From Lacipirellulaceae bacterium (GTDB taxonomy: Bacteria > Planctomycetota > Planctomycetia > Pirellulales > Lacipirellulaceae), in NCBI GenBank assembly GCA_040218535.1, contig JAVJRG010000012.1, positions 682,001-746,000 of the forward strand: a stretch of 64,000 bases of DNA, given 5' to 3'. Position numbers and translations under genes: made by a program. Below, one piece after another: positions 4,851 to 42,059 of this stretch (positions are counted from its first letter, which is position 1; each line of letters begins with the position of its first letter). Below the pieces are notes generated by a model. The model saw only the letters and a list, made by a program, of their open reading frames with translations, did no database searches and was not told the DNA's origin.

Positions 4851-7800
4851 TTAGAACCTTGCAGAACGCCGCAGGCAAGAAAAGCTATAAAGGCTGCTGA
4901 TAAGGAGTAGAAGAGCACTCGGCTCCGGCACGTTTTGCGAACTCGCCAGCGAGGCCGTTGTTCCGTATTCTGTTTGCCAACTGGGTATCAACGACGGATC
5001 GGTACGTTGCAGCGTCAAGAAGTCCGCCCCGTCAACATCGCCGTCCGGCTCGGTGTCGGCAGCCAGTGCCGCGAGGACTTCCAGCACGACGTTGTTCGAC
5101 CCGTAGAGGACGTTCCACTCCAGACCTGCAAGCGTGGGAAAGTTCTCCACAGCAAACACATCTTGCACGCTGGTGGCCGTGATGATTTCGAAGGTGTCGC
5201 CCGCTACCGGTGTGAAGCCGCCAAGTAGCGAAACCTCCAACGTACCGCCCAGGTCGGCGATGCCTGCGCCGAGGATATGTTCCAAGCGATCGAACTCGCC
5301 CTGCCCGGTGCCACCGAGTTCAATTTCTAGTGTGCCGTTGTAACTAACGCTGCCACGGTTGACCGTTGCGGGCGAAAAGCCGGGCGAGTCGGTCCCCGTA
5401 ATGTTGCAGTTATCGCAAGTGCCGACACCTTTCACGAAGCCGGTGAGCGTGATCGGCTCGGCCAATGAATTCCCCGTGATGTTGCCGTTATTGATGACTG
5501 GCGTCGCCGAGTTATCCGGCGTGTCGATGGTGCCAAAGCCTGAGACGTTCCCGCCAAAGTCCAGCGTCAGGCCATTGTTGGCAATTAGATTTGCCGATCC
5601 ACCGCTGCCGTTACCCAGCGTCACGTTCGCGCCCGAATCGAACACCGCGTCGTTGGCATCGTGCAGCGTCGTCGCGCCGGATTGAATCTGCACATCGCCG
5701 TTGGAGTAAAAGCCTGAGTTAGAAGTCGCATCGCCGAGTGCAAGGGAGCCGGTAGCCATAATCGTTGAGCCGGTAGCAGCCAAGACGCGAGCGTTCACTG
5801 AACCATTGCCCGAAAGTTGTCCGCCGAATTGAAGATTCACACGCTCCGAATCAATCGTTCCGCCGGTGAGACTCACCGAGCCCAGCGCGCCGATGTTGGT
5901 TTGGCTCAGTGCCGAGGTTGTCAACGAAGCCCCAGAGGCAATCGTCACACTGCTTGGTGAAATAACACCCGCTACGCCAATCGACATGTTACCGGTGACG
6001 CTCACTTCGCCGCCTTGAATATCAAGCGGCCCCTCGCCACCGGAGGCCGAATCGTTCAAGGCAAGCAGTCCAGCGCTGACGAGCGTTCCGCCCGCGTAGT
6101 CGTTGTTGCCGTTGAGGACGAGTGTTCCGTCGCCACTCTTGATGAGTTGGCCCGTGCCGCCTAGATCGCCGTTGACGGTGTAAGCTTGACCGGAGTCGAT
6201 GTCAAAGGTGCCTGTTGAGCCCGTTAACAAGAATCCGCGTGCCGCTGTCGAACTGCCGGTGACCTTGAGTGTCGTTGAGTCTTCCAGGGTCACAGTTCCT
6301 CCTGCGCCTAAGCTAGTGTCATCGGCAATCTCCACGGTCCCCGCATTGATCGCGGTTGCACCCGTATAAGTGTTCGTTGCTGAGAGCGTCAGCCGCTCCG
6401 TTCCGTTCTTCTCAAGATTCCCGGTACCGCTAATGACGCCCGCGAACGTGACGGGATTGACGAGGTCGAAATCGAGCGTGGCGTTGTTCTCGATGTTTCC
6501 CCCAGTAGTCCCTTGCCCGGTGATCTGCAAAGTCCCCTGCTCAATCACTTTGTTATTCCCGTCGACATCATTGCCATTCAGCGTGAGCGTACCTAGGCCC
6601 GACTTGGTCAGCACACCCGTGCCGGAGAGCGTCCCGGCGAGAATGTATTCCGCACTAGGATTGGAGATTTCGAAGTCGAAATCGTTGGTCACTTCAAACG
6701 CGCGGCTGCTGGCAAGCTGGTTGCTGCCGGTGTATCGAAGATCGCCTCCGAGGGCTCGAATCTCTGCGGACGAGAGCCCGAGATTTCCAAGTCCAGAGAA
6801 AGAAACAAGACCGCTGAGAAGATCGTTCGAACCGGAGTAGGTATTGTTTCCCGTGAGCGTAAGTGTTCCGCTGCCTGCTTGGGTGACCGTCCCGCTTCCG
6901 CTGATTTGCCCACCGTTGCTTATCGAGCTAGAGCGACTGTACCTTAGGTTTCCGTTATTGAGGATGTTGCCGCTGACTGCCCCTGTCGATCCGCCGTTGC
7001 CAATCTGCAAAGTTCCGTCGGTGATCGTTGTTCCGCCGCTGTAGGTGTGGTTCCCAGTAAGCGTAAGCGTGCCGCTTCCTTGCTTCTCGACGGCGCCAGT
7101 CCCCGAGATATTGCCCCCGTAGGTTACGTTGTTGTCGCGGTCGAAAATCACATCAGATAAGTTGTTCACGTTGCCAGTGATTGAACCGGTCGACCCATCG
7201 CCAATCTTCAAGGTTCCCGCGGAGACAATCGTTGTCCCACCGTAGGTGTTGTTTCCTGTCAACGTAAGCGTTCCACTGCCCAGCTTCGTCACGGTGCCGC
7301 TACCGCTGATCGTTCTGCCATAGGTAGAGCTTGTACTGCGGTTAAAAGTCACACTCGTGTTGTTGACGATATTGCTATTGATCGATCCGCTACCGCCGCC
7401 GTTACCAATGTTCAAAGTTCCGCCAGTCAAGACTGTGGTTCCACTAAAGGAGTTATTGGCCAACAGCGTCAACGACCCGGCCCCTTGCTTATTGAGCGTG
7501 CCATTGCCGCTGATGACGCCGCTAAAGAGATAAGGATTGGAACGGTTGATGGTGACTGTGGCGTTATTAGAAAGATTGCCATCGATCGAGCCAGTCGTCC
7601 CACCTGATCCGATTTCTAGAATGCCACCAGTGACTGAAGTCGTCCCGGTGTAAGTATTGTTTCCGGTCAGTCGCAACCGACCGCTCCCTGTTTTGCTGAG
7701 CGACGTTGATCCGGAAATTGGTCCAGAGACCGTCAACCGTGCCGGAGCATTGACGATATTCCACTGCGCACTAGTCAGCAAAAGCACGCTGCTGTTGATG

Positions 7801-8174
7801 TTGTAATTGGCCGACGTGCCATTGACCGTCAAATCGCCACTGGAGAGCCGCAGTTGCGACTCGGACAACGTCACCGACGACGAGCCGCTAAAGGTCGCCG
7901 AGATGATCGTGCGACTTCCATTGAGCTGAACATTAATCGGCCCTACGCCACCCGTATTGAACACGGCAACGTCGTTCGAATCCGGAAAAGTACCCGCCGG
8001 GCCGCCGGACCAATTCGACGTACCTGGGAAACCGAAGTCGACTTCATCCCAGTCGTTACCAGTGGCGTCGCCCGTCCAGGTATACGTTAGGGCCCAAGCC
8101 GGACGAGCCATTCCCAGAAGAACGAGAATGACGGCTGATAAGAAGACGAACTTCGTCCCTTGAGAATGGTACAT
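4851..8174 (-). CDS. Autotransporter-type beta-repeat surface protein with PEP-CTERM anchor
   Basis: 1107 residues from ATG at 8174. The frame extends upstream to 8378, but that part reads through a decayed gene, and 8174 begins a clear signal peptide ending near AWA-L (residue ~28). Residues ~160-700 hold about eight units of 65-75 residues with the core [15 protein letters not shown], the autotransporter-associated beta strand repeat. A C-terminal domain ([18 protein letters not shown] onward) matches one in the 20404-23037 protein. The tail has [18 protein letters not shown] at ~1040 and VPEP at ~1082, then a hydrophobic segment and RRSARF. Despite the repeat name there is no outer-membrane barrel, so it is read as a surface-anchored protein rather than an autotransporter. 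Same-strand neighbour 58 bases downstream. Confidence 0.85.
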
Positions 8175-8239
8175 CGCAGACCCCCACACCGAGAATTCGG
8201 AATTCGAATAGGTAATGCCTGCTCTGCTCCAGTGGTCTA

Positions 8240-8530
8240 TTAGAACCTTGCTCCGCCTCGTAAACAAGGAAATAGTGTGGAGGCCAGCAGGAGAAGGCAG
8301 ATCGCACCGGGCTAGGGCACGTTTTGCGAAGACGCGAGTGATCCCGGCGCGCCGGGACTGCCGTACTCGGTTTGCCAAGAAGGAATGAGCGCAGGGTTAT
8401 CACGCTGAAGCGCAAGAAAGTCCGCTCCGTCGACGTCGCCGTCCGGTTCGGTGTCGGTGGACGATCCGGCAGCGATTTCGAGAACAACATTGTTCGTGCC
8501 GTAGAGAATGTTCCAGTTCAAATCGCCAGC
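8240..8530 (-). pseudogene. Remnant C-terminus of a PEP-CTERM repeat protein, stop in the PEP motif
   Basis: The minus strand reads DLNWNILYGTNNVVLEI, then [18 protein letters not shown], then SLASSQNVP and a TAG at 8312-8314. Past the stop in the same frame come [17 protein letters not shown] and GGARF before TAA at 8240. This is the whole PEP-CTERM tail with the glutamate codon of VPEP changed to amber (GAG to TAG). No signal peptide or repeat body remains, and upstream of ~8530 the homology stops abruptly. It sits just upstream of a full-length paralogue on the same strand. A broken copy left by recombination is the simplest reading. Confidence 0.75.
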
Positions 8531-31322: not shown

Positions 31323-31612
31323 TTGGGCTATTCGCCTCTCACGTTGCCTCCTGTGTGCCACTGCTGGCTTGTCGGGTGTTGCTCACGTAACGAGCTTGAA
31401 CTTCGGCCGTCATCACGTTCCATCGGGCGTTTGTAGCAGTCCAGCAGTGCCTATTCGTTGCGGCAAGAGCGACTTCGACCTTTTCCCAGCGATTACACTG
31501 CTGGCTCCCAGTAACGCTTCAAAGAGCGGCAAAGAACAGTCGATACATGACACGGCGTGCAGGGCCTAGCTCACTAAACCAGCAGTGGCACCCTACGATT
31601 CGAAGTGTATAT

Positions 31613-33208
31613 CTACTCCAAAGACTTGAAGTAATCTCGCCAGAGTAGCACATCGTCGCGGTCGACATCCCCATCTTCATCTTTGTCGGCTGAATGAAAC
31701 TGCGAGTTGGGTGTTGCCGCGGCAGTTGGACCGCCCGATGAAGGAGCCGACTGGGCTGACCCGCTACCTCCACCCCCGCTGGCCGCTTGCTGTGTACTGC
31801 CGCAACCACACAACCCCGAAGGGATTCCGCCAAACTCCTGATCGTAAATCGCGCGGTCAGCTAGATCAACGTCCCCATCGCCGTCGGCGTCTCCCTCAGA
31901 TCGCGAAGCGCACTCCGCAAGACCATTATTCTGCTGCCAAATAGTAAAGTCGGTCCCGTCGACCGTGCCATCGCGATTGAAGTCCGCACAGAGTAGCTTG
32001 TTGCCTCCGGTCTGGTTGAAATTGGCTAGCACGATATCTAAGTCATCCGTATCGATTGAGCCATCACCATTGGCATCGCCATCGGTGAATTTTGGATTCG
32101 GTGGTGCATTCTCTCCGAAATTACTGAGCAGAATCGAAAGGTCATCACCGTCAACATCGCCATCTAGGTCGAAGTCAGCGGCCATGAAGTCGTAGAGCCT
32201 GAGGCTATTTTCTTGAAAGAAGGTGGCTGAATCAATGAAGGCATCGCCAACATCTTGCACAACTATCTTGATCGTATAAGTGCTAGGTGCCAGCACGCAA
32301 GCACTTTCACGGGTGAGCAACTTGGTAAACCCTCCGTACTCGTGATCGAAGTGCAGGTTGGTAGCGACGTTTGCATGAAGTGATGTTTGTAAGATGGCAG
32401 GTGATGGTGCTACCTTGTTTTCAAGCAGAAGACCACATTGACGAAGATCAAACAGTGTAAGAGTGGATTCGTTTCCGCTTCCATCTCGAAACAGAATGAT
32501 GTTTTCAAGATTTTGGCCGTTCTCGTCGCCGATGAATACGAGCGGTGTGTCATTATACGTACTCAGACTATAATGAGGGTGTTCGTCTGACGCATGTACA
32601 AAGCTGATGCTGAGAATGCCGGGTGAACTGAGTGTGACTTTGAATTCTAGAACCGTTGCATCGGAGCCTGGTGGAACTCCTGGCGGCAAGACAACTTCGT
32701 TGAAGAAGTCCTCGTCCCTAGGAAGTTGCAGAACAAAATCAGCTTCACCTGGCGCCGCAGCTGAAGCTAGTGCAAAGCCATTATTTGGACCCTCGACACC
32801 TACGCCGCGATCATTCGGTATACCTGAGATCTGAGAATCTGCATCAGTAATCAGCCCCGTGCAAAGACATACTCCTGAGTCTACTCCGAGGCCCCCTTCG
32901 TACTCAGCGTCACCGTTAGCATTTTGGTTAGCTGCAGGAAGCAGTGTACCCTGTGCAGTGACGCCATTGGTGAAAGTTCCCATACCGCGAGGGTTACTAT
33001 CGGGATTGCCAGTAGCATTTATCTGAGTAGTGGCAGAGCCTGCAACAACGATGTAGTTGCTCGCTGAATCAGCGAGGTTGTTTGCCAATTGAGCAGGAGT
33101 AGGTCCGCCAACCTCTCCGCTGCTTTGTACGTCCACGGCTAAGCTAGGCAGAGATAGAAAAAAACAACAAAACAATACAAGCAATGCACTGAATGTTCGC
33201 TTACACAT
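31613..33208 (-). CDS. Choice-of-anchor-L domain protein with dockerin-like repeats (internal start)
   Basis: Nested in the fused frame, starting at ATG 33208 with GGAGG eight bases upstream; 531 residues. Signal peptide through LPSLAVD. The choice-of-anchor-L domain covers ~30-300 (GPTPAQLANNLADSASNYIV, GGLGVDSGVCLCTGLITDA, VLEFKVTLSSPGILSISFVH). The C-terminal part carries four calcium-loop-type repeats as in dockerins (DFDLDGDVDGDDL, DGDANGDGSIDTDDL, DFNRDGTVDGTDF, DGDVDLADRA) and a last one (DKDEDGDVDRDDV), ending DYFKSLE. It lacks a sorting signal of its own, so surface attachment might depend on a partner, for instance the co-encoded PEP-CTERM protein. That is inference. Closest relative is the 38521-40170 protein, almost co-linear. 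Confidence 0.78.
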   Translation of the reverse strand: MCKRTFSALLVLFCCFFLSLPSLAVDVQSSGEVGGPTPAQLANNLADSASNYIVVAGSATTQINATGNPDSNPRGMGTFTNGVTAQGTLLPAANQNANGDAEYEGGLGVDSGVCLCTGLITDADSQISGIPNDRGVGVEGPNNGFALASAAAPGEADFVLQLPRDEDFFNEVVLPPGVPPGSDATVLEFKVTLSSPGILSISFVHASDEHPHYSLSTYNDTPLVFIGDENGQNLENIILFRDGSGNESTLTLFDLRQCGLLLENKVAPSPAILQTSLHANVATNLHFDHEYGGFTKLLTRESACVLAPSTYTIKIVVQDVGDAFIDSATFFQENSLRLYDFMAADFDLDGDVDGDDLSILLSNFGENAPPNPKFTDGDANGDGSIDTDDLDIVLANFNQTGGNKLLCADFNRDGTVDGTDFTIWQQNNGLAECASRSEGDADGDGDVDLADRAIYDQEFGGIPSGLCGCGSTQQAASGGGGSGSAQSAPSSGGPTAAATPNSQFHSADKDEDGDVDRDDVLLWRDYFKSLE

Positions 33209-33955
33209 GGAATGTCCTCCATTAATTGACTTAAAAATGTTCGTTCTCCTAGCAGAAGCCATGCCGCAGAAGCATAGAAAGAGTATGACGACTGATCTTG
33301 GTTCGGGTATTCTCCCAAAGCGAATCCGATCGATCTGAGCTGACCAAGCTACATTCTCACTTGGGCCCAGGAAAAAGAAATCAAATTCCAGTCTAGTAAC
33401 AGTCATTAAGTCAGGAGTCCCGGGTGAACCACCTCGAAAAGTAAAGTTCTCGAATGGCATTACAGCTGTGAATTCCCCACTATTGAGCGGTATGTCTAGA
33501 ATTCGTTGCTCGTACGAAAACGACTGGTGGGTATCTTCGCGCAGAATGACTCGTAGATAGCTGGGCGACTCTGTCGCATCAATGGAAAGGAAGTCGAAGA
33601 GAATTGCATTATTGACTCCTTGCTCGCTAATATCTGCCGGAGGAAGGTCGTAGTTAAACTGAAAAGCAACAAGTGGAGTCAGCATGTCAGTTCGGTTCAG
33701 TTCGGTGAGACTTGCTGACATCACAGATGATTGCGTAACGCCGACATCGAACGAAGCAACTGGATTGACGCCCCCACCCGCTATCTCGATCGTTCTTGTC
33801 GTTGGGATTGGGCCTGTGAGATTTGTTACGACTGGTTCGTTTTCCATTTCGGGACTAACCACCTCCGCAGGATCATCAAAGTCATCAAGAATAAACGCGG
33901 CTTGCACGTCGGAAAGGAAACAGAAAACCAGCAGGCTGACGGGGATGATTCTCAT
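31613..33955 (-). CDS. In-frame fusion: PEP-CTERM protein read through into choice-of-anchor-L/dockerin protein
   Basis: 780-residue open frame, ATG at 33955. Residues 1-249 are a complete small PEP-CTERM protein: signal peptide MRIIPVSLLVFCFLSDVQA, FILDDFDDPAEVVSPEM, beta domain, then IPEP at ~216 with VVILFLCFCGM and ARR. No stop follows; the frame runs into a second protein with its own signal peptide (MCKRTFSALLVLFCCFFL). Related genes at 40154-40906 and 38521-40170 are separate but overlap by 17 bases. So the stop was lost here, or the gene makes both a read-through product and an independently started second protein. The PEP-CTERM segment in the middle should be cut during sorting if the fusion is made. 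Confidence 0.8.
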   Translation of the reverse strand: MRIIPVSLLVFCFLSDVQAAFILDDFDDPAEVVSPEMENEPVVTNLTGPIPTTRTIEIAGGGVNPVASFDVGVTQSSVMSASLTELNRTDMLTPLVAFQFNYDLPPADISEQGVNNAILFDFLSIDATESPSYLRVILREDTHQSFSYEQRILDIPLNSGEFTAVMPFENFTFRGGSPGTPDLMTVTRLEFDFFFLGPSENVAWSAQIDRIRFGRIPEPRSVVILFLCFCGMASARRTNIFKSINGGHSMCKRTFSALLVLFCCFFLSLPSLAVDVQSSGEVGGPTPAQLANNLADSASNYIVVAGSATTQINATGNPDSNPRGMGTFTNGVTAQGTLLPAANQNANGDAEYEGGLGVDSGVCLCTGLITDADSQISGIPNDRGVGVEGPNNGFALASAAAPGEADFVLQLPRDEDFFNEVVLPPGVPPGSDATVLEFKVTLSSPGILSISFVHASDEHPHYSLSTYNDTPLVFIGDENGQNLENIILFRDGSGNESTLTLFDLRQCGLLLENKVAPSPAILQTSLHANVATNLHFDHEYGGFTKLLTRESACVLAPSTYTIKIVVQDVGDAFIDSATFFQENSLRLYDFMAADFDLDGDVDGDDLSILLSNFGENAPPNPKFTDGDANGDGSIDTDDLDIVLANFNQTGGNKLLCADFNRDGTVDGTDFTIWQQNNGLAECASRSEGDADGDGDVDLADRAIYDQEFGGIPSGLCGCGSTQQAASGGGGSGSAQSAPSSGGPTAAATPNSQFHSADKDEDGDVDRDDVLLWRDYFKSLE

Positions 33956-33984
33956 GGTGTTTGCTCGATATGGGTGTTATTTCT

Positions 33985-34015
33985 ATCCTAATCCTTTTTT
34001 TTTTTCGTTTGTCAA
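33985..34015 (-). promoter_or_regulatory. Putative promoter of the fused module, -35 box over a stop codon
   Basis: TTGACA (34010-34015) and TAGGAT (33985-33990) on the minus strand, spacing 19, with an A-rich spacer (11 A in a row). The -35 overlaps the TGA that ends the PEP-CTERM-tail remnant upstream. The same layout recurs before the two related genes at 40936-40966 and 41718-41747. The -10 is a poor match, so this is tentative. Confidence 0.4.
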
Positions 34016-34098
34016 ACAGTTGCCGGAAAGCACTGGCAGCATCGGGTTGAAAGCCTCACTGTTGCCAGGCTGGCAAGCAGAACCGAGTTTGGCTCAGG
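34012..34098 (-). pseudogene. Isolated PEP-CTERM tail remnant
   Basis: The minus strand reads PEPNSVLLASLATVRLSTRC, a short bit more, and a TGA at 34012-34014. It closely matches the end of the intact gene at 40963-41688 (IPEPSTFLLASLATARLSTR). No gene body precedes it; an in-frame stop lies just upstream. It is the leftover C terminus of a deleted paralogue. Confidence 0.7.
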
Positions 34099-34114
34099 AC
34101 TTTTGGCTAATCAA

Positions 34115-34185
34115 GAACAGACCTCAATTGACTACTGCCCGGAAGCCAAACGGCTTAGCAGGAAGCAATCAATTGAGGTCTGTTC
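34115..34185. repeat. 71-bp palindromic element, copy A
   Basis: A perfect 17-bp inverted repeat (GAACAGACCTCAATTGA, 34115-34131, with 34169-34185) encloses an inner hairpin AAGCC-aaac-GGCTT (34143-34156). A second copy at 41847-41913 has the same shape and the same downstream word GTTAGTTCTAGTCGA. It is not followed by a T tract. It could be a REP/MITE-like repeat or a structured RNA. Confidence 0.75.
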
Positions 34186-34280
34186 GTTAGTTCTAGTCGA
34201 TATTAGTTAGACGGGATCGGACACTGGTCTAGTTCCATCTTATCACTGGTAATCGCCGAGTGCAAAAATGCTAGCGGCGG

Positions 34281-34471
34281 GTGGCACTGGCTCTGCCAGT
34301 GTTTGACTTTTTTATGCAGCTCTACACTTGAGAAAGTTTGGACTTAAGTGCCCTACCCAGCTGCAAACTGCAAGCAAGTAGAAGGGAATCGATCAGCTTG
34401 TGGTCGCAACACATAGCTCCTCGAACTTGTTACCCACGCCAGAAGTTCGGCACTGGCAGAGCCAGTGGCAC
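34281..34471. repeat. Pair of inverted short palindromes
   Basis: CACTGGCTCTGCCAGTG at 34285-34301 and its complement CACTGGCAGAGCCAGTG at 34451-34467, each itself a hairpin with a 3-base loop. They lie in opposite orientation 150 bases apart in the gap before the sulfatase gene. They look like extragenic palindromic repeats. The surrounding 34186-34596 holds no convincing gene. Confidence 0.65.
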
Positions 34472-34596
34472 TCGTGTCGGGTGCCGCTGCAGCAAGACGG
34501 CGCTCGCGTTCATTGGCAATTCTCTAGCCAATGGCCCGTAGACGATTTATGCTGGAGGCTTCTCTTAAGTAGTACAGAACGAGCTTGAGGTGAGTC

Positions 34597-36948
34597 GTGA
34601 GAAGGCTTCAAAACGGGTTCGCTTTTTTTGTTTTCTTGGCGACCGCTTCTCCTCTGTTTGCGGAGACTCCGAACATTCTTTGGATCATCTCGGATGACCA
34701 AAGCAATGACATGGGCGCTTACGGCACGCCTGCCGTGAGTACGCCGCGGTTGGATCAGCTCGCTGCTGAGGGGGTGCTGTATCACAATGCTTATACGACC
34801 GCCCCGGTTTGTAGTGCTAGTCGTACCGCGATGATGACCGGCATGTATCAGACCTCGCTGTCCCGAGCGATGCATCATCGACCGGCGAACGCCTCGAAGC
34901 TGCCGTTGCCCTCGGGTGTCGAACCGATCAGCAAGTACTTTCGCGACCAAGGCTACTTCGTTGGCAACGCGAAACCTGATTTCAGCGGCAACGGCAAGTT
35001 GGATATGAACTTTGCCGACAAGGATGGTACCACGCTCGCCTTCAGCGATCTGTTCGATGGCAACGATTGGCGGCAGGCTGGGAGCCAGCCCTGGTTTATG
35101 CAAGTCAACATTTTCGAACCGCACCGACCTTTTCGACTGGCCAATCAAGATCTGAATCGGCGCAACCAGCTTGCGTTGCCCGCGGATATGCCTGATCACC
35201 CACTCGCCCGGGCCGATTACGCGGACTACTTGGCCTCGATCGAATCAGCCGACGCCAAAGTGGGGGCCGTGCTCGATCGGCTTGCAGCAGACGGATTGGC
35301 TGACAACACGATCGTGTTTTTCTTTTCCGATAACGGTCGCGAGTTTACCCGCGCTAAAGGTTCCGCTTACGATCCGGGGTTTCATGTCCCACTGGTGGCT
35401 CGCGTCCCTGAGGCTTTGCGACAACAACGGCCCGATCTGGCCCCAGGCACGCAGAATCATCAACTTGTCAGTATGTTGGATGTGACCGCGGCGACGTTGG
35501 CGGCAGCAGGGATCGACTTATCTGCAAACGAACTCGATCATTTGGCAGGGAACGATCTGCTTTCGGCCAGCTACACCGGGAACGATTCGCTGGTGATGGC
35601 GAATGATCGTTCGAGTAACGCTGCCCATCGCTCGCGTGTGGTGCGTTCTGGTAATCTCGCGTACATCAAGAACATTCATCACGATCTTGGCTACTTTGGC
35701 GTAGACGCGAGTTGGTATAGCAAACAAGAACGGCCGGTCCACACGCTGCACGAAGTGCTGAAAGGTCGTGGATTGGTGACGGCTGAGGACAATTTGCTTT
35801 ACGGAGACTCGCATCCCGAAGAAGAACTTTACGATCTGGCTGCCGACCCACATCAGTTGAACAATCTGATTGACGATCCGACCTATGCGACTCAATTAAC
35901 GCAATTACGGGGCGAGTTGGATCAGTGGACCAGCGCAACAGGCGACCGGGGAGGAGAATTCGATCCCGATCTCCTGCCCGGACAGAATTGGTATCGAAAC
36001 ACGGGCCGCTTTCGCCATTTGGATGACAAGAACCTGCCCCGTGATACGACCGACTACGAATACCTCCAGTGGTGGGCCGATCAATTCAATGTGCCGCTCG
36101 ATTTAGAAGAAGGCGAATTTGACCGCAACAGTTTTTGGTTGCCCAATCGTTCGCTGGAGAATACTTCGCTAGCTGATGGCGGTTACTCGGGCGGCACCCC
36201 CCAAGGGTGGACCGACGCGACGCCTGGTGGCGTCTGGGTGCAGAACCTCCGCTCCAACCAACTCACCGCTGAGGCTGTCGAAGGGGGGAATACGTTGCAG
36301 CTCAACTCAGGCGGGGCTGAAGTGCGCTGGGCGATCGACGACAACTGGGGCAATCTCTTGGAAGCGGGTGAAGCCGCCGGTTGGCAAATCAATTTGGCTG
36401 CGTGGGTCGGGCGGCGAAGTGATTTCCAGGGGAACCAACCTGGTCAACTACGGGTAAGTTTGCAAACGGCTGCCGGAGAAATTCTTGTCGAAGAGGAATT
36501 CGATCTCCAAGGAATCAATCAAGGCACATTTCAGCAGGAAGTTTTCCAGTTGCTCATCGATCGTGGCACGGCGGTCACCTACCGTGACGAAACGCTGTAC
36601 CTAGCGCTGGCCAACCTAGCAGACGGCGGCACCGATGCTCGTAACGCACGCGTAGTGCTTGATCAAATGGTGCTCGCGATTCAAGAGTTTCAATCGGCTG
36701 ACTACAACTACGATGGCAAGGTCGATCTGGCCGATCGTGCCGTCTGGACCAACAGTTTTGGTTCAACTACAAGTCTCGACGCCGACGGAAATCTTGACGG
36801 CGTCGTTAATGGAGCCGACCTGCTCCTCTGGCAACAAAGCCGCACTGAGCAAGCCAACACAACAAGCGCCGTCCCCGAGCCGGGAGCGTCTTTCATGGTG
36901 TTCAGCTTGACCATGTTGCACAGCATTGGAACAGTTAGGTTGCGCTAG
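34597..36948 (+). CDS. Secreted S1-family sulfatase with dockerin-like repeats and PEP-CTERM anchor
   Basis: 783 residues from GTG at 34597. Signal peptide MRRLQNGFAFFVFLATASPL with cleavage near FAE-TP. Residues ~25-440 are a sulfatase: metal site NILWIISDDQSNDMGAYG, the formylglycine motif CSASRTAMMTG, and the later FFFSDNGREF. It should hydrolyse sulfate esters or sulfamates of a polysaccharide outside the cytoplasm after conversion of the cysteine to formylglycine. Residues ~525-690 form a beta domain (carbohydrate-binding-like), then a dockerin-like pair (NYDGKVDLADRAVW, DGNLDGVVNGADLL), then VPEP at ~759 with a hydrophobic segment and VRLR. So it is displayed at the surface. Sulfated algal polysaccharide is a likely target; that is inference from planctomycete lifestyle. 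Confidence 0.85.
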   Translation: MRRLQNGFAFFVFLATASPLFAETPNILWIISDDQSNDMGAYGTPAVSTPRLDQLAAEGVLYHNAYTTAPVCSASRTAMMTGMYQTSLSRAMHHRPANASKLPLPSGVEPISKYFRDQGYFVGNAKPDFSGNGKLDMNFADKDGTTLAFSDLFDGNDWRQAGSQPWFMQVNIFEPHRPFRLANQDLNRRNQLALPADMPDHPLARADYADYLASIESADAKVGAVLDRLAADGLADNTIVFFFSDNGREFTRAKGSAYDPGFHVPLVARVPEALRQQRPDLAPGTQNHQLVSMLDVTAATLAAAGIDLSANELDHLAGNDLLSASYTGNDSLVMANDRSSNAAHRSRVVRSGNLAYIKNIHHDLGYFGVDASWYSKQERPVHTLHEVLKGRGLVTAEDNLLYGDSHPEEELYDLAADPHQLNNLIDDPTYATQLTQLRGELDQWTSATGDRGGEFDPDLLPGQNWYRNTGRFRHLDDKNLPRDTTDYEYLQWWADQFNVPLDLEEGEFDRNSFWLPNRSLENTSLADGGYSGGTPQGWTDATPGGVWVQNLRSNQLTAEAVEGGNTLQLNSGGAEVRWAIDDNWGNLLEAGEAAGWQINLAAWVGRRSDFQGNQPGQLRVSLQTAAGEILVEEEFDLQGINQGTFQQEVFQLLIDRGTAVTYRDETLYLALANLADGGTDARNARVVLDQMVLAIQEFQSADYNYDGKVDLADRAVWTNSFGSTTSLDADGNLDGVVNGADLLLWQQSRTEQANTTSAVPEPGASFMVFSLTMLHSIGTVRLR

Positions 36949-36982
36949 ATCGCCTCGCTCGTCAAAACGCCAACAGCGCAAA

Positions 36983-37017
36983 CGAAAAGCCTGACTCATC
37001 AAATGACGAGCCAGGCC
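36983..37017 (-). terminator. Probable terminator of the 37057 gene
   Basis: GCCTGACTCATC (36989-37000) pairs with GACGAGCCAGGC (37005-37016), allowing G-U pairs. The minus strand continues with TTTTCGTTTG. It lies about 40 bases past the stop of the gene at 37057 and may also serve the convergent sulfatase gene. Confidence 0.6.
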
Positions 37018-37056
37018 GTTCTTTACTAATTGGCAGGTGCTCTCGAATCGCTCCTG

Positions 37057-37971
37057 CTAGTTATTGATATCGACAGCGGCGTCAGCACCAACTTCGGCGT
37101 TAGCCGCGGAGTTCCCGGTGCCGACATCGCTGGCAGCATCTAAGCCTGCATCGATGTTCGCATTGCCGGAATCGTTCCCTTGCCCGGCATTCGCCGAAGC
37201 GCCGGTGTTGTTGCCGATCCAGATCTGCTGGCCGTTATAGCGAATAAACTGACGGCCTTGGCCGTCGGCTTGGATACGGTAAACGGGCTGGCCGTCGCGC
37301 ATCCAGCGGTCGTTATTGTCACCCTGCTGACCGCGGAAAGCCGCTGTGTAACCTCCGCGACCGTCGGGGCGGCGGAAGTCTTGCTCGCTGTACTTGTTCC
37401 ATTGGCCATCGCGATGGTACATCCAGTTTCCGTTTGGTGAGTAATACCACCACTCGCCATTGTGACGCGTCTTCCGCCAGTCTGCATTACGATCTGCTTG
37501 TGCATTGAAGTTCGCATCAGCTTGTGCACGAGCTGGCACTTGCGGCGTGTTTGACCGGACAGAGCTGTTAACGCTTATTCCTGATCGGCCTTGAAAGTTC
37601 TGCTGATTGCCACCTTGCAGACGGGCGTTGCCCTGCAGGTTGCCGTTGGCGTCGATGCGACCAAGATTACGGCCCTGCTGATTCAAATCGTTGCGCAAGT
37701 TTTGAACGCCTTGCTGCGTGCGTCGTACAGCCCCTTGAGTTGCCCCTTGGACTCCTCTCTGGAGATTTCGTGCGCCTTGCTGTGCACGGTTAACGGCGTT
37801 GCCGACTCCTTGCGTGGCACGTTGGACTCCTTGGCCCACTCGTCCACCGACGCCGGCATTCGCATTTCCACCCACGCCAATATCAACTTGAGCTTGAACA
37901 GCAGCACCCGCAAAAAGCACGACAGCTAGCGAGCCCATCGCAAAGCCCACTCTCGACAAAACTATTCTCAT
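37057..37971 (-). CDS. Secreted Asn/Gln-rich protein of unknown function
   Basis: 304 residues from ATG at 37971 (GGAGAGAT just upstream; a GTG one codon earlier also fits the frame). Signal peptide with cleavage near VQA-QV. Residues ~30-130 are heptad-like Gln/Asn/Arg-rich repeats (QGVQRATQGVGNAVNRAQQG, RRTQQGVQNLRNDLNQQGRN), probably helical or disordered. Residues ~165-215 hold a Trp/Tyr-rich motif (NGEWWYYSPNGNWMYHRDGQ) found in small planctomycete secreted proteins. The end is Asp/Asn/Gly/Ala-rich. No anchor. A structural extracellular role is a guess. Confidence 0.7.
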   Translation of the reverse strand: MRIVLSRVGFAMGSLAVVLFAGAAVQAQVDIGVGGNANAGVGGRVGQGVQRATQGVGNAVNRAQQGARNLQRGVQGATQGAVRRTQQGVQNLRNDLNQQGRNLGRIDANGNLQGNARLQGGNQQNFQGRSGISVNSSVRSNTPQVPARAQADANFNAQADRNADWRKTRHNGEWWYYSPNGNWMYHRDGQWNKYSEQDFRRPDGRGGYTAAFRGQQGDNNDRWMRDGQPVYRIQADGQGRQFIRYNGQQIWIGNNTGASANAGQGNDSGNANIDAGLDAASDVGTGNSAANAEVGADAAVDINN

Positions 37972-38520
37972 CACATCTCTCCTTCTCGATCAATCGAGTA
38001 CGCGTCACTTTCGCAACGTCGCCCTTCCTAAGCTGGAAGTGGTAACGCCGCTGCTCGCCTTAGGTAGAGGGTGGCCTGCCGAGCAGCCACTCTCTTGAAC
38101 CGAGAATACTCCCTAGTAACGCTGAATTTCAGTATAGAACATTTTGCAGAGCAGCGCAGTGTGTCAGGTCGTTACAGTAATTTGTGGTCAATCAAACTGG
38201 TGCTAGCGATTCGTTGATTCGTAAAGTTCACAAGCTGGTATCATTAAGGCCACAATCTGGCGGGAGCTGTTGTCAAGGGACCTCACTTCTGCCACGACGG
38301 CTGGTCAAAATTCGACCAGTCCTTCTTTTTGATGAGGGTGCTGTCGTGTATCGCCTCGCACCGAATACGTCTGATCCAGGCCTCAACCGCCTGTCTTAAG
38401 GGCATATGATATAGAGGTGCGACGACCCTAGAGCAGCGGATGGCACACGTGCAATCCTATGAACGGGAGTGTCGTGAAACAACGACGATGAATTCGCACC
38501 CGGCGATTCGAAGTGGGTGA
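37972..38520. other. Intergenic region without a recognised gene
   Basis: About 550 bases between two minus-strand genes. It must hold the promoter of the 37057-37971 gene. No ribosome site with a credible ORF and no strong hairpin were seen. Confidence 0.45.
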
Positions 38521-40170
38521 CTACTCTAACGATTTGAAGTAATCGCGCCAGAGGATCACATCGTCGCGATCGACATCCCCGTCGCCATCTTTGTCGGCTG
38601 AAGGAAGCTGCGAGCTGGGTGTTGCCGCGGCAGTTGGGCTGCCCGATGACGGAGCCGCTTGGGATGACCCGCTTCCCCCGCCCCCGCTGACCGCTTGCTG
38701 TGTGCCGTTGCAACCACACAACCCTGAAGGGGTTCCGCCGAACTCCTGATTGTAAATCGCGAGATCGTTCGCATCGACATCGCCATCGTCGTCGGCGTCT
38801 CCCTCGGCGCGCGAAGCACACTGTGCAAGGCCATTATTGTCTTGCCAGATCAGGAAGTCGTCGCCATCGACCGTGCCATCGCGATTGAAATCGGCACAGA
38901 ATAGCTTGTTGCCACCGGTCTGATTGAAATTGGCCAGCACAATATCCAGATCGTCGCCGTCGATTGCCCCGTCCCCATTGGCGTCGCCATCGGTGAACTT
39001 TGGATTTGGTGGGGAATTGTTGAAATTAAAGAGCAGAATCGAAAGATCATCACCGTCGACATCGCCATCGAGGTCGAAGTCGGCGGCTAGGAAGTCGTAG
39101 AGTTTGAGGCTGTTTTCTTCAAGGAAGACGGCTGCGTCGACTCGCTGGTCGACAACATCTTGAACCACAATCTTGACGGTATAAGTGCCGGGAGGAAGCA
39201 CGTGGCAAGTCTCGCGTGTTAGCTTCCGAGTAAAGCCCCCTAGCTCGATATTGTAGTTATCGGCCGAAGGAATCGCATGCAAATTAGGAAGCGGTCCTTC
39301 CACTGGATCAACATAGGCTTGAGTGAGGATCGCTGGACTCGGCGCTGTGTCGTTGTTCACGAAAAGTTCCGGGCAGGCACTTATTTCGAACAGGTCGAAA
39401 GGAGAATCCACACCATTGACGATTGTCGTAGCAATGTTTACACCGTCGACGATGATTGCGACTGAATCGTTAAACGCGAATTCGGGGTTCACATAATATG
39501 GATATTCATCCGAACCGAACACAAAACTAATCCGCAAGAATCCAGGTTGGACAATCTCCACGTCGAACTGCAGTACGGTGGGGTCGCCGCCGCCTGGATT
39601 GGCCAATGGGAAGGCCAAGTCTTCAAAGTCCTGGTCAACAAAAGCAGAAGCAAACAGTGACGTTGACACCTCGCCTGTATGGTTTTCCAAATTGGGTTGA
39701 TTTCCGATCACTCCTTCACCGTCGCCATTATTGGGTCCTTCCATTCCGAATCCGAGATTAGGGCCAGCAGTTGCTAAAGAGTCGCTGACCAAGCCCGTGC
39801 AGAGACAAACTCCGGTATCAATGTCAATCCCTCCCGCATAAGTTTCACTTGGGCCCCCATTGGTATTTGGCAAAGGAGTACCGGCAGCAGTAATACCATT
39901 GACGAAGGTTCCCATCGCTCGATCATCGCTGCTCGGATTCCCTTGACCGGGGTTATTGGGATTCCCTTGAGCGGGGTTATTGATCGTCGTGACGGCAGAA
40001 CTGGCGACGACTAAGACTCCACCGGAAGTATCGGCAATATTCTCAGCTAATTGCTGTGGCGTCGGACCAACTCCAGAGCTTGGTGTGATATCGATCGCGT
40101 TAGCCTTCAAGGCAGATGCGAACAAAACAAAGGTTGTTGCCGCAAATAGGCAATTAGTTTTGGTGATCAT
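38521..40170 (-). CDS. Choice-of-anchor-L domain protein with dockerin-like repeats
   Basis: 549 residues from ATG at 40170; AAGGAGGGA lies nine bases upstream, so the longer frame back to 40347 is not used. Signal peptide MITKTNCLFAATTFVLFASA, cleavage near ANA-ID. Choice-of-anchor-L domain ~25-320 (GVGPTPQQLAENIADTSGGV, GGIDIDTGVCLCTGLVSDS, GFLRISFVFGSDEYPYY). Four or five calcium-loop repeats follow (DFDLDGDVDGDDL, DGDANGDGAIDGDDL, DFNRDGTVDGDDF, DGDGDVDRDDV), with a Ser/Gly/Ala linker before the last, ending DYFKSLE. It overlaps the upstream PEP-CTERM gene by 17 bases, so translation is likely coupled. Sister of the nested protein at 31613-33208. Expected to be secreted; no sorting signal of its own. 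Confidence 0.82.
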   Translation of the reverse strand: MITKTNCLFAATTFVLFASALKANAIDITPSSGVGPTPQQLAENIADTSGGVLVVASSAVTTINNPAQGNPNNPGQGNPSSDDRAMGTFVNGITAAGTPLPNTNGGPSETYAGGIDIDTGVCLCTGLVSDSLATAGPNLGFGMEGPNNGDGEGVIGNQPNLENHTGEVSTSLFASAFVDQDFEDLAFPLANPGGGDPTVLQFDVEIVQPGFLRISFVFGSDEYPYYVNPEFAFNDSVAIIVDGVNIATTIVNGVDSPFDLFEISACPELFVNNDTAPSPAILTQAYVDPVEGPLPNLHAIPSADNYNIELGGFTRKLTRETCHVLPPGTYTVKIVVQDVVDQRVDAAVFLEENSLKLYDFLAADFDLDGDVDGDDLSILLFNFNNSPPNPKFTDGDANGDGAIDGDDLDIVLANFNQTGGNKLFCADFNRDGTVDGDDFLIWQDNNGLAQCASRAEGDADDDGDVDANDLAIYNQEFGGTPSGLCGCNGTQQAVSGGGGSGSSQAAPSSGSPTAAATPSSQLPSADKDGDGDVDRDDVILWRDYFKSLE

Positions 40171-40906
40171 CAATGCGATCCCTCCTTCGTAGTATGGATG
40201 CTTGTAAGCCAAAAAACACACTGCTTGCAATGCTCCACAGGACAAGGCTTGACGGCTCGGGGATCCGCCCGACGCGAATACGGTCGATCTCGACGGTCCA
40301 ACCTTGTTCGAGTATGCCGTTGACCGTGCCGTTGCCATTAATGCCAACGAATAAGAATTCTACAGCGTTGAATTCGGTGGTTCCGAGACCGCCACCCCGC
40401 GGTCGAAATGAATCAAAGGGAATGGATAGCGATCGGGAAACTCGCACATCCACATTGATCAAGGCTTCGAAAAAAAGACCGCGATCTTCCACGAGCAGAT
40501 AGATAAATGGTGGCGGAGTTGGTCCTGTGACTGAGGCAACATCAATAATTACTGCCTTGTTCTCTCCGTGCTCCGTGAAATCGACTGGACTTTCGTTGAA
40601 TCTGTAAGTGGCACTCAATCTGGCCAATCCCAACCCGTCAGAGCTTGAGGACTCGCTTCTCTCAGCAGTCAAGTGCGAAGGGCGTGTTGTACTACTATCA
40701 AGCTTGGCAAAAGGATTAGTGAATACATCGAATATGGCTAGAGTCCTCGCCGCGTTCTGGTCCCCAACATTCAATGTTTCAATCAAATCGCCTTCCATCT
40801 CTGGACTAACCACTTCCGCCGGATCATCAAAGTCATCCAGAATAAACGCCCCTTGCGCATCGGAAATGAAACAGAAGACCAGTAGGCTGGCGGGAATGAT
40901 TCGCAT
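40154..40906 (-). CDS. Small PEP-CTERM surface protein of the MRIIP family (copy 2)
   Basis: 250 residues, ATG at 40906. Signal peptide MRIIPASLLVFCFISDAQG, then FILDDFDDPAEVVSPEM, shared almost exactly with the genes at 31613-33955 and 40963-41688. The single beta domain ends with NGILEQGWTVEIDRIRVGR, directly followed by IPEP (~215), a hydrophobic segment and a basic tail. The TAA lies inside the start of the next gene. Family function is unknown. Pairing with a choice-of-anchor-L partner in two loci suggests they act together, perhaps one presenting the other. Confidence 0.85.
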   Translation of the reverse strand: MRIIPASLLVFCFISDAQGAFILDDFDDPAEVVSPEMEGDLIETLNVGDQNAARTLAIFDVFTNPFAKLDSSTTRPSHLTAERSESSSSDGLGLARLSATYRFNESPVDFTEHGENKAVIIDVASVTGPTPPPFIYLLVEDRGLFFEALINVDVRVSRSLSIPFDSFRPRGGGLGTTEFNAVEFLFVGINGNGTVNGILEQGWTVEIDRIRVGRIPEPSSLVLWSIASSVFFGLQASILRRRDRIDDHQN

Positions 40907-40935
40907 GGTGTTTACTCGGGTTTGGTGTTACTTCT

Positions 40936-40966
40936 ACCCTAATCGTTTTTTTTTTGCGTTTGTCAA
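40936..40966 (-). promoter_or_regulatory. Putative promoter of the copy 2 module
   Basis: TTGACA (40961-40966) and TAGGGT (40936-40941) on the minus strand, spacing 19, with ten A in the spacer. The -35 overlaps the TGA of the intact gene at 40963-41688. Same layout as at 33985-34015. The -10 is weak. Confidence 0.4.
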
Positions 40967-41688
40967 ACAATTGCTGGAACGCACAGGCAGCGTCGGGTTG
41001 AGAGCCTTGCTGTCGCGAGGCTGGCAAGCAGGAACGTGCTGGGCTCGGGAATCCGACCGACGCGAATACGGTCGATCTCGACGGTCCAACCTTGTTCGAG
41101 GATGCCGTTGATCGTGCCGTTGCCTGTTACAGAAAAGGAAATGCGTGCCACATTCTCAAAACTTGTTGTGCCTGAACCACCGGCTCGAGTACGAAATTGG
41201 TCGAACGGGAGAACCACAGTGCTGGGTGTTTGGATATTGCTTAGCGAGAAGAATATCTCGTAGAAGTCGCCTTCGTCCTCCGCGAATCCGTAGAGAATTG
41301 GCGGGAGTGTTGGTCCAAAGACTTGCGTAACATCAATGAGGAACGCATCATTTTGGCCGCCTTGGGTAAAATCCTGGGGCTCTTGACCAAACCGATAGAT
41401 CGTACTCAGCCGTGCTAACCCCAATCCCTCCGATGGATCCGCACTCGATCTAATCGCTGTGAAACGTGATTCACGTGTTAGGTTCGAATCAATCCTAGCA
41501 ACGGGTGTTGTGAACACATCGAAAAATGAAAGGGTACGCTCTGCTGACAAATCGCCTACCCCCGCGGTCACCGTCGGCTCACCTTCCTGAATTACCATCG
41601 CAGGATCGTCAAAGTCATCCAGAATAAACGCGGCTTGCACATCGGAAATGAAACAGAATACCAGTAGGCTGGCGGGAATGATTCGCAT
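40963..41688 (-). CDS. Small PEP-CTERM surface protein of the MRIIP family (copy 3, solo)
   Basis: 241 residues, ATG at 41688. Signal peptide MRIIPASLLVFCFISDVQA and FILDDFDDPAMV match the other two family members; the middle has GLGLARLSTIYRFGQEPQDF and the conserved NGILEQGWTVEIDRIRVGR, then IPEP at ~213 and LLASLATARLSTRR. Unlike copies 1 and 2 it has no choice-of-anchor-L gene after it: copy 2 follows at once. The last codons form the -35 region of copy 2's promoter. Tandem duplication is the simplest origin. Confidence 0.83.
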   Translation of the reverse strand: MRIIPASLLVFCFISDVQAAFILDDFDDPAMVIQEGEPTVTAGVGDLSAERTLSFFDVFTTPVARIDSNLTRESRFTAIRSSADPSEGLGLARLSTIYRFGQEPQDFTQGGQNDAFLIDVTQVFGPTLPPILYGFAEDEGDFYEIFFSLSNIQTPSTVVLPFDQFRTRAGGSGTTSFENVARISFSVTGNGTINGILEQGWTVEIDRIRVGRIPEPSTFLLASLATARLSTRRCLCVPAIV

Positions 41689-41717
41689 GGTGTTTGCTCG
41701 GGTTTGGTGATACTTCT

Positions 41718-41747
41718 ACCCCAATCGTTTCTTTTTACGGTTGTCAA
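41718..41747 (-). promoter_or_regulatory. Putative promoter of copy 3
   Basis: TTGACA (41742-41747) and TGGGGT (41718-41723) on the minus strand, spacing 18, A-rich spacer. The -35 overlaps the TGA that ends the upstream PEP-CTERM-tail remnant. Third instance of the same arrangement; the -10 is the weakest of the three. Confidence 0.35.
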
Positions 41748-41829
41748 ACAATTGCTGGAACGCACAGGCAGCGTCGGGTTGAGAGCCTCACTGTTGCGAG
41801 GCTGGCAACGAATGCAGGGTTGGCTCAGC
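41744..41829 (-). pseudogene. Second PEP-CTERM tail remnant (frameshifted)
   Basis: The minus strand has AEPTL, a one-base shift, then FVASLATVRLSTRRCLCVPA and a TGA at 41744-41746. It is nearly the same as the last 25 residues of the gene at 40963-41688. Only the tail survives, directly downstream (minus strand) of the palindromic element, as at 34012-34098. Confidence 0.65.
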
Positions 41830-41846
41830 AATCTTGCCAATCAAAA

Positions 41847-41913
41847 AAAGACCTCAATCGACTACTCCCGGAAAGCCAAGCGGCTTTGCGGTAAGCAGCG
41901 GATTGAGGTCTTT
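41847..41913. repeat. 67-bp palindromic element, copy B
   Basis: AAAGACCTCAATC (41847-41859) pairs perfectly with 41901-41913; inner hairpin AAAGCC/GGCTTT at 41872-41887. Against copy A at 34115-34185, two stem positions change on both sides (C-G to A-T and T-A to C-G), so pairing is kept while sequence changes. Confidence 0.75.
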
Positions 41914-42059
41914 ACGTTAGTTCTAGTCGATTCTGGTTAAGAGGTAACTCGGACGCTGGTATGAAGCTATTCTAGCAGTGGTGATCGTCGAGTGCAAAAA
42001 CGCTAGCGTTTCTCCTTTTCCCTTGGCAGAAGCCGCCAAATCGAGTAATTGTCCCACTC

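Follow-up and report, generated by a model that had tools for sequence, protein, structure and literature searches.

What adenine runs are doing in the predicted promoters of a surface-protein gene pair, and how two copies of that pair came to be alike at their ends and unalike in between, are questions raised by a locus in Lacipirellulaceae bacterium (assembly GCA_040218535.1). The window analysed comprised 64,000 nucleotides (nt) of contig JAVJRG010000012.1, positions 682,001 to 746,000 of the forward strand; the genome from which it comes, designated G000, is 95.8% complete. Between positions 31,613 and 41,688 of the window, the minus strand, to which all features of the locus given below belong, encodes three related small proteins (the anchors a1, a2 and a3), each with a signal peptide. 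Two of these lead a larger protein (c1 and c2, respectively) that carries a choice-of-anchor L (choice-L) domain and a dockerin-like tail. The two-gene cassette is interpreted here as a contingency-type locus, with a poly(A) promoter design like that of the vlp genes of Mycoplasma hyorhinis; we would give this interpretation roughly four chances in ten.

Organization of the cassettes

In copy 1, the a1 anchor domain (33209..33955; MRIIP...RIPEPRSVVILFLCFC...ARR) has no stop codon and reads in frame into c1 (31613..33208), which has its own ATG at 33208 and a Shine-Dalgarno (SD) sequence (ggagga); the two form a single open frame of 780 amino acids (aa) at 31613-33955. The join contains two hydrophobic segments separated by a basic one. 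In copy 2, a2 (40154..40906; 250 aa, with a PEP-TM-RRR tail) has a stop codon, and the start of c2 (38521..40170; 549 aa; SD ggagg) overlaps its end by 17 nt. Since anchor and choice-L protein are encoded on one strand, with frames overlapping or fused, they should be translated together. The third gene, a3 (40963..41688; 241 aa), is a solo anchor, with its stop codon within the -35 hexamer of a2. An earlier, sequence-only reading of the window had described a duplicated two-gene module with a third, solo anchor beside it; the solo anchor was confirmed and the module genes are real, copy 2 consisting of two genes and copy 1 of a single frame.

Both c1 and c2 passed the curated cut-off for the choice-L family NF038133 (79 and 86.8 bits; cut-off 27) and that for type I dockerin repeats (Dockerin_1, PF00404; 28.0 and 24.6 bits; cut-off 22.9). 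A pattern count gave exactly five dockerin-type loops in each, where the earlier reading had seen dockerin loops and put them at four or five. A PEP-hydrophobic-basic tail was recognized by eye in a1, a2 and a3, that of a1 being internal; the PEP-CTERM Pfam scores of a2 and a3 (13.8 and 15.1 bits) were under the cut-off of 20.7, and the same search with the 780-aa frame gave no match. Similarity of a2 and a3 to the PEP-CTERM family NF038120 was weak only (15.4 and 21.5 bits, far under the curated cut-off of 80). By inspection, no cysteine was found at the signal-peptide end of a1, a2 or a3, and the anchors do not qualify as lipoproteins. In copy 1, the anchor does not exist as a protein of its own with sorting at the C terminus; if translation passes through the a1/c1 join, the resulting chain could still be cut at the signal peptide of c1.

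Adenine runs in the predicted promoters

The predicted a1-c1 promoter (33985..34015) comprises TTGACA (34015-34010), a run of 11 adenines (A11, 34005-33995) and TAGGAT (33990-33985), while the predicted a2-c2 promoter (40936..40966) comprises TTGACA (40966-40961), A10 (40955-40946) and TAGGGT (40941-40936); the spacer is 19 nt in each. The corresponding region of the solo a3 (41718..41747) has TTGACA, an interrupted tract (A5GA3), a spacer of 18 nt and TGGGGT. Upstream of the paired anchor in G041, a relative belonging to another genus, the predicted promoter has TTGACA, a 19-nt spacer with A10, and TAAACT. The vlp-like arrangement, with an A-run between the -35 and -10 elements of a surface-protein gene, was found at A11, A10 and the A10 of G041, in each case at a predicted promoter. 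All three anchors that lead a pair have an A-run of at least 10, against none of the four assessable unpaired anchors, the fifth unpaired anchor (the third of G040) starting at a contig edge. The first anchor of G040 is preceded by A8, without TTGACA; no long A-run was found upstream of the second G040 anchor, the G037 anchor or the lone choice-L gene of G026.

These runs stand out from their surroundings. Homopolymers were scanned in the window, in 1.6 Mb of G000 outside it (80 stretches of 20 kb) and in 136 kb of G041, and across these 1.8 Mb the pair promoters held the only runs of 10 or more. A11 and A10 are the only runs of nine or more in the window and the longest A-runs in nearly a third of the genome. 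The 1.6 Mb outside the window contained no homopolymer as long as 10 nt, five A/T runs of 9, and no combination of TTGACA, A-run and TA site; likewise, the 136 kb of G041 had no run of 10 or more apart from the A10 of the pair promoter. One genome per species was compared, so that variation of the A-tract could not show. When 250 nt of upstream DNA were compared between a2 and the G041 anchor, the best local match was a 29-nt island around the A-run. The island scored 43 for a2, against a maximum of 27 among 500 block shuffles; the values were 34 against 26 for a1 and 32 against 28 for a3.

Mosaic structure and possible exchange of outer domains

The two copies are alike at both ends and differ in the middle. 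A constant 5' block in copy 1 (33837..34099) matches that of copy 2 (40788..41050) at 84%, with parts also found at 41599-41808, and a constant 3' block containing the dockerin tail (31588..32229 in copy 1; 38496..39134 in copy 2) matches at about 83% of nucleotides. Identical sites numbered 209/255 at the 5' end, 783/1554 in the middle and 530/639 at the 3' end; that is, about 82-83% for the upstream DNA with the signal peptide and for the dockerin tail, and about 50% between them. A search of G000 with copy 2 DNA found copy 1 by its two ends only. Synonymous distance was 0.22-0.54 over the first 30 codons, while most windows in the middle were saturated, nearly so, or undefined, the exception being a 3' stretch of 83 nt common to a2 and a3.

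The outer domain of a1 is 45% identical to that of the second anchor of G040, against 27% to a2 and 25% to a3, and that of the first G040 anchor is 75% identical to its counterpart in G041; the 5' ends of the anchors are 87-93% identical within G000, and 96% identical between the second and third anchors of G040. In the outer-domain tree, a1 joined the second G040 anchor (support 85/93, not starred). Approximately unbiased (AU) tests rejected a clade of a1, a2 and a3 (p = 0.019), a clade of the second and third G040 anchors (p = 0.025) and a clade of all three G040 anchors (p = 1.3e-5). Between the second and third of these, 89 of 90 nt agree and then 41 of the following 60, the break falling around a DDFDD motif. 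Among the larger proteins, c1 and c2 are 85% identical in their dockerin tails and 47% in their outer domains, the outer domain of c1 being 46% identical to that of the G026 protein. As a control, 57 BLAST pairs of PEP-CTERM paralogs from G000 were considered, with gene starts taken as the first ATG, and 42 were removed for short alignments. Two of the 15 retained pairs showed an excess of more than 40 points of identity at the 5' end, each based on a single aligned residue. Upstream scores were 12-24 among control paralog pairs, against 145-190 for a1, a2 and a3.

Remnants of anchor genes persist upstream of a1 and a3. A relic of an anchor-gene 3' end (PEPNSVLLASLATVRLSTRCCQCFPATV and a stop codon) lies at 34012..34098, with its stop within the -35 hexamer of a1, and a decayed relic of the same tail (ASLATVRLSTRRCLCVPAIV and a stop codon) lies at 41744..41806, upstream of a3. 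These relics suggest past tandem recombination at the locus.

A strong hairpin is present in the shared DNA upstream of a1 (34105..34190; -48.8 kcal/mol, z = -9.1), with a matching hairpin upstream of a3 (41838..41920; -41.3 kcal/mol, z = -8.1). Both are near-perfect, and in a DNA search of G000 the a3 copy matched nothing but itself and the a1 copy. Considered as a conserved RNA, the hairpin shows two paired changes, a number reached in 138 of 500 shuffles, and hairpins equally strong occur elsewhere. Rfam at gathering thresholds gave no match between 29000 and 44000.

Distribution and pairing in relatives

Searches covered 43 genomes of the GTDB family, a sample of 396 genomes of the order (part of a larger group) and, for NF038133, a sample of 392 genomes of the phylum. 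G000 contained only two choice-L matches (c1 and c2) and, at E < 0.05, a limit that excluded matches at E = 0.07 and 0.28, only three anchors (a1, a2 and a3). A search of G000 with cassette DNA, in which 40 of 66 first-look candidates were scored, found no further copy beyond matches of 22-67 nt, and silent cassettes elsewhere in the genome were rejected on these grounds. Plasmid spread was likewise rejected, the plasmid collection containing no match.

Within the family, 8 anchor genes were found in 4 of 43 genomes (three in G000, three in G040, one each in G041 and G037). The order sample yielded no further full-length anchor; 15 more genomes had weak partial matches only, and 17 partial matches (E = 8e-8 to 5e-4) were excluded from the count. 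NF038133 choice-L domains occurred in 3 of 43 family genomes and in 22 of 392 phylum-sample genomes. The dockerin-tailed subfamily was found in G000 (two genes), G026 (one) and G041 (one, shortened to 160 aa), and searches of named genomes found only the G026 and G041 contigs again (JANQOF010000055 and JAJDEE010000334). Neither gene was found in G001, of the same genus as G000. Within the phylum sample, no choice-L protein outside this subfamily was seen to combine a five-loop dockerin tail with a leading anchor; in the stretches searched around 23 choice-L loci outside G000 (L038-L060) no homologous anchor was found, the start of the choice-L frame falling inside the stretch in only 11 of them. 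In six loci of other planctomycetes (L042, L044, L047, L049, L054 and L070), the choice-L domain formed part of giant open frames, 6001 to 13269 aa in length.

The pairing, which had been described as fixed, proved to be looser. Three of the four choice-L/dockerin genes are preceded by an anchor, and only three of the eight anchors lead such a gene; pairing does occur, though it is rare and not invariable. The co-occurrence in relatives that the sequence-only reading proposed to check was borne out by G041, where anchor and choice-L frames overlap by 7 nt, and since this is another genus, the linkage extends beyond a single genome. It failed in G026, where the choice-L/dockerin gene has no adjoining anchor and the genome elsewhere has only a weak partial anchor match, and in G040 and G037, where no choice-L was found beside three anchors and one anchor, respectively. 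For one G040 anchor, the contig ends on the downstream side. Because anchors two and three of G040 touch contig ends, and G040 and G041 are 79% and 76% complete, a pair could escape detection in these genomes. Only three anchor/choice-L pairs are known, too few to judge co-evolution of types.

Two further observations concern these relatives. On G040 contigs C274 and C318 (loci L063 and L072), anchors stand in tandem, the tail of one overlapping the signal peptide of the next; about 67 nt at the end of one contig recur where the other begins, and one anchor's tail continues in frame into this shared stretch, such that two anchors may be fused here as well. A similar palindromic element (CCACGACGACAC...), resembling a miniature inverted-repeat transposable element, was seen in G041 (L076, about 2130-2200) and G040 (L063, about 1800).

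Protein folds, sorting and attachment

Models of a2, at low confidence, and of the 780-aa fusion both gave a beta-sandwich matching the carbohydrate-binding modules (CBM) CBM11 and that of a GH50 agarase, as well as NDUFAF1/CIA30 and GH12. Foldseek matched the fusion model to CBM11 at E = 5e-6, the a1 part being the better modelled; the fusion had a predicted template modelling score (pTM) of 0.31, with a predicted local distance difference test (pLDDT) value below 50 for most of the choice-L part, and was not usable as a test of an interface. Sequence searches of the PDB gave nothing at E below 0.2 for either family. On these models, a glycan-binding role for the outer domain of the anchor is a lead only.

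G000 encodes one exosortase (E = 2.7e-51), in keeping with membership of a PEP-CTERM system, and many PEP-CTERM tails (at least 150 among the matches listed). At least 20 dockerin matches at E = 0.001 were found among the best 150 of 204 candidates. No match to cohesin (PF00963) was found in the 95.8% complete G000 at E = 0.1, making a dockerin-cohesin link unlikely, and attachment of this cellulosome type was rejected.

Other features of the window

Between the two cassettes lies a sulfatase (34597-36948; PF00884), with a weak dockerin match below the cut-off and, on the same chain, a PEP-CTERM-like tail recognized by eye. A low-complexity protein of 305 aa, without any family above cut-off, adjoins the cassettes at 37057-37974. 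Further away, a protein of 1175 aa (4851-8378) contains passenger-associated transport repeats (PF12951, E = 2.6e-61).

Interpretation and rival explanations

If the cassette is a contingency locus, it would consist of two diverged copies of a two-gene surface unit plus a solo anchor. Slippage of the A-run would alter the spacer, and a change from 19 to 18 or 17 nt would raise output, switching anchor and choice-L protein together; recombination at the constant ends would swap outer domains. The anchor would be a carbohydrate-binding-like beta-sandwich that the single exosortase processes. The choice-L/dockerin protein would be exported alongside the anchor and retained through its own calcium-loop tail, the partner being something other than a recognisable cohesin. 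In copy 1 both proteins may be made as one chain, with signal peptidase cutting at the internal signal peptide. Taken jointly, these steps would describe a phase-variable, ectodomain-exchanging surface system in a free-living planctomycete, in which a slipping A-run switches a carbohydrate-binding-like, exosortase-sorted protein and its choice-L/dockerin partner, exchange in two or more genera takes place at a fixed boundary, around a DDFDDPA motif, and copy 1 yields a self-separating polyprotein; the whole conjunction is unlikely to hold in every part.

Several observations weigh against a contingency locus. The spacer totals exactly 19 nt in all three long-run promoters, a constancy to be expected if slippage is infrequent or one state is favoured, and the -10 hexamers (TAGGAT, TAGGGT and TAAACT) are weak. 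A standard promoter scan, which takes only spacers of 16-18 nt, omits the A-run sites, and it found promoter-like sites no more often than in shuffles. The A11 and A10 of the window share ancestry and are not independent, and the choice-L protein of the G041 pair is truncated to 160 aa. Concerning exchange, the AU tests were picked after the identities had been seen, and two of the p-values, 0.019 and 0.025, are moderate; of the 90 nt alike in the G040 anchors, about 67 also correspond to the overlap of two contig ends; and no silent donor copy was found among the candidates scored in G000. The fold assignment depends on an a2 model of low confidence (pLDDT 55, pTM 0.52) that matches many beta-sandwiches alike (Z = 8-9.6), and no confident model of the choice-L protein was obtained.

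A rival account is an ordinary tandem duplication of a surface operon. Local gene conversion would have kept the ends alike while the outer domains diverged by drift, and the A-run would serve as a constant structural element of the spacer, giving stiff or bent DNA. That account may quite possibly be the right one. The anchor-tail relics upstream of a1 and a3, together with the a3-a2 junction, point to unequal tandem recombination; the constant 19-nt spacer and the failure to find donor copies in G000 fit it too, as does a ratio of nonsynonymous to synonymous divergence (dN/dS) of about 0.2 for a2-a3 and c1-c2, where dS is partly saturated. It sits less easily with A-runs that are unique in the 1.8 Mb scanned and yet kept in two genera, or with outer domains that group with other genera, a pattern that conversion of the ends does not need, although it allows it if the duplications are old. 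The sequence-only reading had instead supposed that one of the two proteins displays or binds the other. An obligate two-part complex in which the anchor displays or binds the choice-L/dockerin protein, which the overlapping genes in two genera and the natural fusion in copy 1 would favour, is doubtful: five of the eight anchors are without a choice-L partner (in one case the contig ends on the downstream side), one of the four choice-L/dockerin genes has no anchor beside it, G000 has no detected cohesin, and no interface could be modelled, given the pTM of the fusion. It is very improbable that copy 1 has simply decayed, stop loss having buried the sorting signal and left the 780-aa frame a non-functional relic. 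Its PEP-CTERM signal is indeed internal and its outer domain far from that of a2, but the frame is open throughout, c1 keeps its SD sequence and ATG, and the A11 promoter is intact; by our own estimate, an open in-frame join this long would arise by chance about once in five or six cases.

Comparison with known systems

In the vlp system, the tract lies within the promoter spacer, the genes are arranged in tandem, and constant 5' ends are joined to differing outer parts. The account in PMC10502178, citing Citti and Wise 1995, has insertions and deletions in the promoter-region adenine tract of these surface-lipoprotein genes accompanying ON/OFF transcription switching. Both systems have an adenine homopolymer at promoters of genes for surface proteins, the promoters of the planctomycete being predicted ones. 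The planctomycete cassette differs in having sec and exosortase-type signals and two genes, where vlp genes encode lipoproteins; its outer domains are beta-sandwich and choice-L, rather than size-variable repeats, and its switching is only inferred. The cassette therefore resembles vlp poly(A) promoters in design and is not a member of the vlp family, because its proteins are not lipoproteins and its switching is putative. In sabA of Helicobacter pylori, a T-tract beside the promoter tunes adhesin output; as described in a section of PMC4081817, this tract is promoter-proximal, adjoins the -35 elements and acts via UP-like contacts. The likeness is a homopolymer at the promoter of a surface protein, whereas the tract of the cassette lies inside the spacer.

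With PEP-CTERM/exosortase sorting, the locus shares the signal peptide, the PEP-hydrophobic-basic tail as recognized by eye and the presence of an exosortase in G000. According to a 2006 study (PMC1569441), most PEP-CTERM proteins are encoded in operons of a single gene; the anchor described here is followed by a second gene in its cassette, and copy 1 has the signal in an internal position. While the domain of c1 and c2 belongs to NF038133 by score, members in the phylum sample may carry their own PEP-CTERM tail (L043, L046) or lie in giant frames.

Literature searches on phase variation with Planctomycetes or PEP-CTERM returned, as judged by titles and abstract openings, no paper on such a planctomycete system; the PEP-CTERM search gave one item on gut invertons. 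To our knowledge, vlp-type poly(A) promoter switches have been described mainly in host-bound bacteria. The unexpected part of the locus is its regulation and evolution: an A-run lies in the predicted promoter of each of the three known pairs, and the outer domains bear signs of exchange, features that hint at surface proteins switching on and off in a free-living bacterium; the A-tract allows a direct test by polymerase chain reaction. Should the interpretation as a contingency locus hold, the surfaces of planctomycetes would probably be under selection by grazing or by phages.

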